From Thiohalomonas denitrificans (GTDB taxonomy: Bacteria > Pseudomonadota > Gammaproteobacteria > Thiohalomonadales > Thiohalomonadaceae): a stretch of 47,675 nucleotides of DNA. This document shows, in pieces, positions 40,453 through 42,700 of this stretch; position 1 is the first letter of the stretch; each line of letters starts with the position of its first letter. Where the stretch lies: positions 1-47,675 of the forward strand of contig NZ_JAENYR010000022.1 in assembly GCF_016841685.1 (NCBI RefSeq), given 5' to 3'. Below the pieces are notes generated by a model, which saw only the letters and a program-made list of their open reading frames with translations, was not told the origin of the DNA and did no database searches. A program made the position numbers and the translations under genes.

Positions 40453-40977
40453 TCACCAACTGATGTAGGAATACCCCTGCTCCTGAAGTTCCATCATATC
40501 AGCGGCGCCAACCTCCACCACCTGCGCAAAGTCCACCACGTCGCTTTCATCCCAGTTGAGGGACTTGAGCGTATTGCCACAGGCGTGGAATTCGACGCCA
40601 TACTGGGCAAGGCTGGAGACTCGCGACTGGATCTCCTCACTCACCGGCCGTAGGGGTTCCCTGGCGAGAACGTGGATCCCCTCAGCAAAGGCCACCACGA
40701 CGATTTTCACGTTGTCCCCATACTTGCGAAGAACGGCCCCCACCGAAAACAACACGTGTTCCTGATAGCCGGGATCGGCCTTGTTCAGCTGAAAAAGCAG
40801 CTTGTGCTCAGGCTCGTCGCCCGGAAAGTGCAGGTCATCGATGCTATCCGTCTCCTGAGCACTCGCCTGCCGGCCAAAGAGCCCGAGGCCGGCCCCCGCT
40901 GCCACAGCTGCCGTAAGCAGGCGCCGTCTTGCACGATCGAGTTTCCGTCCCGGACGAATACTCTCTTTCTGACTCAT
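40453..40977 (-). CDS. Tat-exported DsrE-family protein
   Basis: A 174-residue protein with a twin-arginine signal: RRRLL at residues 17-21 followed by the hydrophobic stretch TAAVAAGAGLGLFG and an ASA cleavage-type site near residue 40. It is probably folded in the cytoplasm and exported. The mature part resembles DsrE/DsrF-like proteins: VKIVVVAFAEGIHVLAR, GVEFHACGNTL with conserved Cys133, and the terminal VVEVGAADMMELQEQGYSYISW. Some DsrE proteins take part in sulfur transfer, but a single cysteine does not prove activity. ATG 40975-40977 has AAGGAG upstream; an earlier frame start adds 17 residues without support. It is divergent from the CsrB-like RNA gene. Confidence 0.85.
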   Translation of the reverse strand: MSQKESIRPGRKLDRARRRLLTAAVAAGAGLGLFGRQASAQETDSIDDLHFPGDEPEHKLLFQLNKADPGYQEHVLFSVGAVLRKYGDNVKIVVVAFAEGIHVLAREPLRPVSEEIQSRVSSLAQYGVEFHACGNTLKSLNWDESDVVDFAQVVEVGAADMMELQEQGYSYISW

Positions 40978-41194
40978 CCCATTCTCCTTCACACCTGGAC
41001 TCTTCATCCGGTTTGCCGTTTCGGCCAAAGAGTCTACAACATACCTACTCTGACCGCGTCGTTTTGCGAATCAACTTCGCTACGGAACGATGCGGGTTCA
41101 AGACAAATCCCCCCTGAGAATTTCCGTTTATTATATAGGCGGGCCCTATCCATTACATCCGCCACCTCGCCGCCGCCCCTGCCGCTCCCTAACG

Positions 41195-41212
41195 TGTAAG
41201 TAATTCCCTACA
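41195..41212 (+). promoter_or_regulatory. GacA/UvrY-type upstream activating box
   Basis: TGTAAG-TAATTC-CCTACA matches the GacA consensus TGTAAG-N6-CTTACA at 11 of the 12 fixed bases. It lies about 32-50 bp upstream of the first GGA motif of the small RNA. In pseudomonads such boxes drive rsmX/Y/Z. The core promoter itself I could not define with confidence. Confidence 0.75.
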
Positions 41213-41226
41213 AGACTTTCAGGTTT

Positions 41227-41528
41227 GTCCGACAGACTTTTCAAGGAGTCAGGAAGACAATGCTCACCCACAAGGAAGAGGAAGTTCCAGGGAGGAGACG
41301 GGACAGGAGGGCCCCGAGACAAGGTACAAGGCGGTACGGTGGACGTTGAATCCTGCCAGGAACCGGCACAAGGACGAAAGAACGCGAGGGATTGCGACGC
41401 AGGGAGGGGCAGTGCCACGGATGTGATCCCAGGGAAGGAAGAAGCGAGCCCAACAGGAGAACGAAAAAGGCCCACGGAAGGAGCCAGGGAGTGGTGAAAG
41501 GCCCGGGCATTGCCCGGGCCTTTTTATT
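41227..41528 (+). ncRNA. csrB: CsrB/RsmZ-type CsrA-sequestering small RNA
   Basis: A plus-strand transcript candidate of about 300 nt with about 20 GGA trinucleotides between 41245 and 41490, many as AGGA or AGGGA. Some lie in hairpin loops: TGCC-AGGAACC-GGCA (41354-41368) and CGGG/CCCG (41299-41316) enclosing ACAGGAGG. Its 5' part (GTCCGACAG...GGAGTCAGGAAGACAA) resembles the E. coli CsrB 5' end as I remember it. It ends in a strong terminator (41499-41528). Such RNAs bind many CsrA/RsmA dimers and relieve translational repression. No open frame with family features overlaps it. The 5' end is inferred; it could begin anywhere about 41220-41245. Confidence 0.85.
41499..41528 (+). terminator. 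Terminator of the CsrB-like RNA
   Basis: AGGCCCGGG (from 41499) pairs with CCCGGGCCT (to 41521) around CATTG, followed by TTTTTATT. Read on the minus strand the T-tract is only TTT, so it is mainly a plus-strand terminator. It may also slow transcripts leaving dnaJ. Confidence 0.92.
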
Positions 41529-41557: not shown

Positions 41558-42700
41558 CTAAAACTTCATTTCCTCAAAGAATTTTCGGACCCCGTCCAGC
41601 CAGGAATGGTGCTTCGGGCTATGCTTGCTGTCACCTTCACGCATGCTCTCGTCGAACGCGTAGAGAAGCTCCTTCTGCTCCTCGGTGAGATTCACGGGAG
41701 TTTCCACCACCACCCGGCACAGCAGGTCACCGACATGGCCGCCACGAACTGATTTGACGCCCTTGCCCCGCAAACGGAACTGCTTGCCGGTCTGGGTCTC
41801 CGGCGGCACCTTCAGCTTGACCCGTCCGTTCAGGGTCGGGACATCCAGTTCACCACCCAGAGCCGCAGTCGTAAACGCTATCGGAACCTCGCAAGAGAGA
41901 TCTGCACCATCGCGCCGGAAGATCGAGTGCGGTTTAACGCTGATCTGAACGTAGAGATCGCCCGGAGGACCCCCGTTTTCACCCGGTTCACCCTCGCCGC
42001 CCAAACGGATCCGATCGCCCGTATCCACTCCCGGCGGCACCTTGACGGAAAGGGTTTTCTGCTGCTCTACCCGGCCCTGGCCGTGGCAGGAGGGACAAGG
42101 GTCGGTGATAATCTGGCCGCTGCCGTGACAGCGTGGGCAAGCCTGCTGGATAGAGAAAAAGCCCTGCTGCATGCGCACCTGGCCATGCCCCTGGCAGGTG
42201 GGACAGGTGGTCGGGCTGCTTCCCTTGCGGGCCCCGGAGCCTTCGCACACTTCGCATTCCACCAGGGTGGGGATACGGATCTTGACGGACGTGCCCTGAA
42301 CCGCATCCTCCAGAGAGAGTTCCAGGTTGTAACGCAGATCGGCACCCCGGAAGGCGCGGCTACCGCCGCGGGCTCCGCCCCCGAAGATGTCGCCAAAGAC
42401 ATCCCCGAAGATATCGGAGAAGTTGGCCCCGCCACCAAAACCACCCGCTCCGCCGGGACCACCACCCATGCCGCCCTCGAGACCGGCATGGCCAAACTGA
42501 TCGTAGGCGGCGCGCTTCTGTGCGTCGGCCAGAACGTCGTAGGCCTCTCTGGACTCCTTGAACTTGTTTTCCGCCTCGGCATCATCCGGATTCCGGTCCG
42601 GATGGAACTTCATCGCCATGCGTTTGAAGGCCTTTTTGATTTCGGCCTCCGTGGCATTGCGCTGAATGCCGAGCACTTCGTAATAGTCGCGTTTTGCCAT
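41558..42700 (-). CDS. dnaJ: Chaperone protein DnaJ
   Basis: The Hsp40 co-chaperone that delivers substrates to DnaK and stimulates its ATPase. It has 380 residues: a J domain with HPD (KFHPDRNP) near residue 33, a Gly/Phe-rich linker (about 75-115, [16 protein letters not shown]), then four CxxCxGxG zinc motifs ([32 protein letters not shown], about 145-210) and C-terminal substrate-binding domains. ATG start. It lies 121 bp after dnaK, with a 9-nt-unit hairpin between them. Confidence 0.99.

Follow-up and report, generated by a model that had tools for sequence, protein, structure and literature searches.

A probable Csr/Rsm-type sponge RNA gene with a UvrY/GacA-type box in the gap between dnaJ and a DsrE-like gene of Thiohalomonas denitrificans

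In the gap between dnaJ and a DsrE-like gene of Thiohalomonas denitrificans lies an unannotated candidate small RNA gene, on the plus strand, which is probably a CsrA-sequestering sponge RNA of the Csr/Rsm type under the control of a UvrY-type regulator. A sequence-only reading of this DNA had proposed as much, and the proposal is supported here by an upstream box, by an excess of CsrA-type CA(N)GGA sites, by conservation in a congener and by the presence of CsrA and UvrY equivalogs in the genome. The RNA would work like CsrB or RsmZ; the kind of regulator is well known and the example is new. In the proposed mechanism a phosphorylated response regulator of the UvrY/GacA type probably binds a palindrome whose centre lies at about -64, and perhaps also a further, weak site that overlaps the -35 region. 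This binding would switch on a stand-alone transcript of about 258 nt ending at a hairpin and T-run near 41525, and the RNA, with about 18 GGA motifs of which 11 are in CA(N)GGA form, would titrate the one CsrA that was found away from its mRNA targets. Positions are those of the window, the whole 47,675-nt stretch of DNA that was analysed, and the features of the locus are as follows.

40453..40977, minus strand: gene of the divergent neighbour, a DsrE/DsrF-like protein whose putative Tat signal was read by eye
41195..41212, plus strand: distal UvrY/GacA-type inverted repeat TGTAAG-TAATTC-CCTACA, matching 11 of 12 consensus bases and identical in the congener
41217..41237, plus strand: possible degenerate second site TTTCAG-GTTTGT-CCGACA followed by GAC, found by eye
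41256..41261, plus strand: putative -10 element GACAAT, matching TATAAT at 4 of 6 positions, with no recognisable -35
41268..41525, plus strand: predicted small RNA of about 258 nt from a putative start site, with 18 GGA, 11 of them in CA(N)GGA context
41497..41525, plus strand: Rho-independent terminator with 13-nt perfect arms and then a T-run, identical in the congener at 27 of 28 positions (41497-41524)
41558..42700, minus strand: dnaJ, the convergent neighbour of the small RNA unit

The box had been described as TGTAAG-N6-CCTACA upstream of the GGA-rich stretch, and it is indeed present at 41195-41212, one base off the UvrY/GacA consensus TGTAAGN6CTTACA that is given in the available text of three papers (PMC4682653, PMC3171408, PMC8523701). 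It is the sole site with at most one mismatch to that consensus in the 3.79-Mb assembly; at two mismatches or fewer such palindromes are not enriched there, with 27 sites compared with 53 for the reversed control. The possible second site, picked post hoc by eye, follows the first at a distance of 22 bp, or two helical turns, with its centre at about -42, and is identical in the congener at 19 of its 21 positions. The putative -10 element is unchanged in the congener, and a scan for sigma-70 consensus flagged no promoter for the unit. We infer that transcription starts at about 41268, which would place the box centre at about -64. Support for this predicted start comes from a recurring spacing, in which CYKACAGAC is followed after N18/19 by a -10-like hexamer. 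The same spacing is seen at seven other palindrome sites of the two Thiohalomonas genomes (in four of which, as at the small RNA, the element comes 22-24 bp beyond the right half of the palindrome itself) and also at sites of the genus labelled g9. This pattern, recognised post hoc, suggests that one type of regulator may serve all of the promoters that share it.

The genome was also searched for the other genes of a Csr circuit. Absence of csrA or gacA from the genome had been named in advance as evidence against a sponge, and neither is absent. One CsrA was found, encoded next to lysC and scoring 117.7 bits against its NCBIfam equivalog model (cut-off 73), and a regulator on contig C45 scores 299.1 bits against the UvrY/SirA/GacA equivalog NF007018 (cut-off 280) and is 58% identical to E. 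coli UvrY; it belongs to a genome with five UvrY-like regulators at E <= 1e-15. The search for gacS that had been recommended gave a different outcome, in that a canonical BarA/GacS kinase was not found with either an E. coli BarA query or PF09984. The BarA-type sCache_4 domain (PF09984) has no match in T. denitrificans or the congener, though it was detected in 7 of 20 genomes searched, and the BarA query at E <= 1e-40 has as its sole match a kinase that lacks BarA's input domain, a search that a diverged kinase may escape. Of the kinases in the genome, the one most like BarA is a 7TMR-DISM hybrid histidine kinase that also has a receiver domain (contig C114; L160 1285-3735, minus strand), and this protein possibly substitutes for BarA in signalling to UvrY. 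FliW has no match in either Thiohalomonas genome, which is to be expected where BarA-UvrY small RNAs control CsrA, since BarA-UvrY and FliW are reported to be near-completely anti-correlated (PMC4682653, in its available text). Two gammaproteobacterial relatives run against that reported relationship, G011 (L099, L177) and G002 (L105, L178) each having FliW together with a UvrY-like regulator (56% and 50% identical to E. coli UvrY, respectively).

If one accepts that the unit encodes a sponge, there is still a minority chance, to be taken seriously, that its activator is not the UvrY orthologue and is instead another NarL/LuxR-type regulator acting on the TGTAGGN6CCTACA palindromes that this genus shares with genus g9; this likelihood is conditional on the sponge and is not to be added to those of the other readings. 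The box is equally near to this second palindrome class of the genome, lying one mismatch from either form, and perfect TGTAGGN6CCTACA sites occur on contigs C47, C57 and C113. The number of UvrY-like regulators, the missing canonical BarA and the CYKACAGAC spacing common to these palindrome sites would all fit such an activator. Against it stands the UvrY equivalog, which scores above its curated cut-off, and TGTAGG half-sites are also found at published sites of the UvrY/GacA type: in E. coli, TGTAGGAGA adjoins the csrB palindrome (PMC4682653), and in Marinomonas, TGTAGGGGAATTCTTACA precedes csrA1 (PMC8523701), both from the available portions of those papers, so the two site classes may be one.

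Control by UvrY itself remains the preferred reading of the box, and the case for a sponge draws further on the composition of the RNA. About 20 GGA motifs in about 246 nt had been counted on the plus strand, and the count stands: the peak of 20 per 250 nt is the densest in the window, where the plus strand averages 4.0 (SD 2.2). Stretches of 250 nt with at least 15 GGA start only between 41186 and 41301, with none elsewhere on either strand, and the densest 200 nt, with 16, begin at 41240. Compared with dinucleotide shuffles, the excess of GGA in the core (41268-41496) is modest at about 2 SD, with 18 motifs against 12.8, a value reached by 35 of 2000 and 25 of 1000 shuffles. The CA(N)GGA form, one of four tested and modelled on the repeat of CsrB and the consensus for CsrA in the available text of PMC7652899, separates the core from its shuffles far more clearly (11 compared with 1.98 +/- 1.3, with 0 of 1000 reaching 11), as it does in the congener's copy (10 compared with 1.89; 0 of 1000). 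E. coli CsrB is alike in this respect, with 15 such sites in 330 nt, where the present core has 11 in 229, against 2.68 in shuffles (0 of 1000), and its 21 GGA compare with 14.4 (reached by 9 of 1000).

GGA density alone is not specific for sponge RNAs. In about 1.53 Mb of DNA, both strands summed and overlapping loci counted, at least 14 GGA per 200 nt were found in the unit, its copy in the congener, csrB of E. coli and a single coding gene of repetitive sequence, which scores higher than the unit. That gene lies near uvrY in G008 (L101 3041-3601, minus strand) and encodes a GYGPGQ-repeat protein of 186 aa, with 19 GGA per 200 nt. Within 400 bp on both sides of all 27 palindromes of the T. 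denitrificans genome with at most two mismatches, the small RNA unit leads with 16 GGA per 200 nt; the runner-up, with 12, is the reverse side of the C47 palindrome and holds no CA(N)GGA. A second sponge was not found among these flanking stretches, a search that one with a weaker box would escape.

The display of the motifs is where the earlier description fared least well. Hairpin loops presenting AGGA had been reported, and some predicted loops do contain GGA, but the accessibility of GGA is within the range of shuffled sequences in both species, its value being reached by 83 of 150 shuffles in T. denitrificans and 107 of 150 in the congener, unlike E. coli CsrB, where 0 of 150 reach it. 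GGA motifs are predicted to be mostly unpaired in 12 of 18 and 10 of 18 cases in the two species and in 19 of 22 in CsrB, and the mean unpaired probability of GGA is 0.63 here compared with 0.49 for all bases, against 0.80 and 0.44 in CsrB. The predicted folds of the two Thiohalomonas RNAs differ, and their consensus, built on only two sequences, has a two-sided change in 2 of 62 pairs. Hairpin display was dropped as support for a sponge. It may be either that the sites are presented linearly or that thermodynamic folding misleads for such a purine-rich RNA.

These properties bear on an unlikely alternative, in which the RNA is real and purine-rich, yet is no CsrA sponge and works through base pairing or targets some other protein. 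The predicted transcript is 68% purine and its GGA motifs may simply follow from richness in G and A, as the excess of about 2 SD and the ordinary accessibility would allow. Such an RNA would leave the CA(N)GGA excess, far above shuffles in both species, unaccounted for, and the genome holds equivalogs of both CsrA and UvrY. In addition, a box of the UvrY type points to a Csr RNA because in E. coli no UvrY target proved stronger than csrB and csrC (PMC4682653, available text).

Conservation was assessed in one same-genus genome (G001), and what follows rests on this single congener. Across the unit (41187-41524) 311 of 343 alignment columns are identical, gaps counted (91%), compared with 37 of 77 (48%) just upstream at 41111-41186 (P = 9e-16). 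The unit is also more conserved than the fourfold sites of dnaJ (147 of 196 identical, 75%; Fisher P = 2e-6) and those of the DsrE-like gene (66 of 82; Fisher P = 0.018). All 18 positions of the box and 36 of 37 at 41231-41267 are unchanged. Of the 20 GGA at 41240-41496, 18 are retained, against 171 of 235 other trinucleotides, which is in the right direction and by itself not significant (P = 0.11). A lack of conservation of the box and the GGA motifs in relatives, which had been put forward as grounds for giving up the proposal, is thus not what the congener presents.

The unit ends, as had been claimed, in a strong terminator, whose arms (41497-41509 and 41511-41523) are complementary at 13 of 13 positions and lead into a T-run, though a consensus promoter and terminator scan left the hairpin at 41497-41525 unflagged. 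This hairpin could instead serve dnaJ as its terminator on the minus strand, with the GGA-rich strand an unexpressed spacer and no small RNA gene at all, a reading that we consider very unlikely. It is a near-perfect palindrome placed beyond the dnaJ 3' end, and the scan flagged neither promoter nor terminator on the plus strand; however, the T-run is on the plus-strand side (TTTTTATT), with only TTTCACC on the minus-strand side, and the whole unit is conserved up to the box, with a sharp drop upstream of it. That one of the strands encodes a short protein, for example through the 109-aa ORF at 41146-41475 (minus strand), can practically be dismissed: both species have open frames of about 70-109 aa, but five one-base indels between them shift the frames, which speaks against a protein and rules out a coding function unless an assembly is wrong, and the 109-aa ORF has no Pfam match at E <= 0.001. 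The size of 530 bp given for the gap between dnaJ and the DsrE-like gene is right if the DsrE-like gene starts at its upstream TTG (529 bp) and not if it starts at the ATG of MSQKES (580 bp).

The small RNA of the preferred reading had been said to look diverged from CsrB, CsrC and RsmX/Y/Z, so that standard annotation might overlook it, and the Rfam models do overlook it. No family matches the unit at the gathering cut-off, the CsrB, CsrC, PrrB_RsmZ, RsmY and rsmX models included; at E <= 10 the area of the terminator hairpin draws twelve weak matches, all well short of their cut-offs, and the CsrC model matched the terminator only, with 8.8 bits against a cut-off of 61. Synteny was followed in 30 of the 49 DnaJ-bearing genomes, and among these 30 loci the stretch beyond the dnaJ 3' end (900 bp, shorter in two) holds the unit only in T. 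denitrificans and the congener. BLASTN of the unit against 56 genomes gave matches at E <= 0.01 in 10, covering the whole unit only in the congener. The others, of 20-44 nt, mostly fall on the terminator palindrome or a C-rich stretch that precedes the box. A single one falls within the body, a 44-nt match in G047 (83%, E = 9e-5), and its locus reaches only 8 GGA per 200 nt.

Searches with box patterns gave a similar picture. A loose pattern of box and GGA occurs in 15 of the 56 genomes, with at most 10 GGA per 200 nt outside the two Thiohalomonas genomes (6 at the match on contig C57 of G018, L181), and a strict one, TGTAAGN6CNNACA followed by spaced AGGA and AGGA, occurs in these two only, with 0 in the control. 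A third pattern has nine matches in 7 genomes, comprising the unit in both species, L175 and L176 in the congener and five elsewhere; the seven that are not the unit have at most 9 GGA per 200 nt, and in two of them a contig end cuts the stretch to less than 200 nt. No copy was found outside the genus by BLASTN or box patterns in the other 54 genomes, and so far, among these 56 genomes, the unit looks genus-restricted. Csr small RNAs may diverge fast and move, and relatives may therefore hold unrelated-looking ones with other spacing.

Comparison with known systems places the candidate close to, and apart from, each of them. RsmX, RsmY and RsmZ of Pseudomonas are likewise GGA-rich RNAs with a GacA box, typically at about -60, and RsmY and RsmZ are about 110-130 nt long; the RNA predicted here has no match to their models at E <= 10 and is about twice that length. 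E. coli CsrB, whose family we take to be Rfam RF00018, resembles it in ending with a hairpin and T-run and differs in its neighbour genes, the present RNA being without an Rfam match. A UvrY-type palindrome also lies upstream of csrB, where its centre is at about -183 (PMC4682653, available text) compared with about -64 from the predicted start here. CsrB1 and CsrB2 of Shewanella (PMC3171408) and CsrB and CsrC of Marinomonas (PMC8523701) were, according to the available text, predicted in a like manner from the box TGTAAGN6CTTACA together with AGGA/ARGGA or ANGGA motifs, to which a Rho-independent terminator was added for Marinomonas, and those papers add expression data (Northern blot and q-RT-PCR, or RNA-seq) whereas the present case is a prediction. 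Csr RNAs of other species have been predicted by ANGGA motifs plus a terminator (PMC5568370, available text). A literature search, with most subscription journals outside its reach, returned no paper joining CsrA with Thiohalomonas, and for CsrA with Thioalkalivibrio and for csrB and small RNAs of Chromatiales the titles and abstract openings name no such RNA in the lineage.

If the sponge reading is true, the output RNA of a Csr circuit is placed in Thiohalomonas-related gammaproteobacteria, a lineage known largely from metagenomes. Box, CsrA-site context, terminator and a single congener would then together be able to reveal fast-evolving sponge RNAs, which GGA density alone cannot. A bolder form of this reading, which we hold to be rather doubtful, is that the sponge is of independent origin and genus-restricted, offers CsrA its sites along mostly linear, purine-rich RNA and not in hairpin loops, and answers to a UvrY-type activator that lost BarA as its partner and came to control a wider set of TGTARGN6CCTACA promoters, cassette-like loci included.

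A promoter-like class, TGTAGGN6CCTACAGAC-N18-CAKWMT, has 12 sites in 6 of the 56 genomes (reversed control 0) and is confined among them to the genera g1 and g9. Two of these sites lie downstream of valS, at G000:C57:20423 (L189) in T. denitrificans and at G001:C3:686 (L183) in the congener, and the class is also present in L179, L181, L182, L184, L185, L187, L188 and L190. At the valS sites about 240 bp of conserved DNA follows in both species, ending in CGGCCTA(A/G)TCAACTGTTA, after which the ORFs differ, a layout reminiscent of cassettes joined at a recombination site. In the congener, a TGTAGGN6CCTACA palindrome and its CTGACAGACG element precede a 67-aa ORF (MVDMDYRQLDNLTPDELRQ...) at L175 1605-1808 (plus strand), and transposase-like fragments lie beside them.
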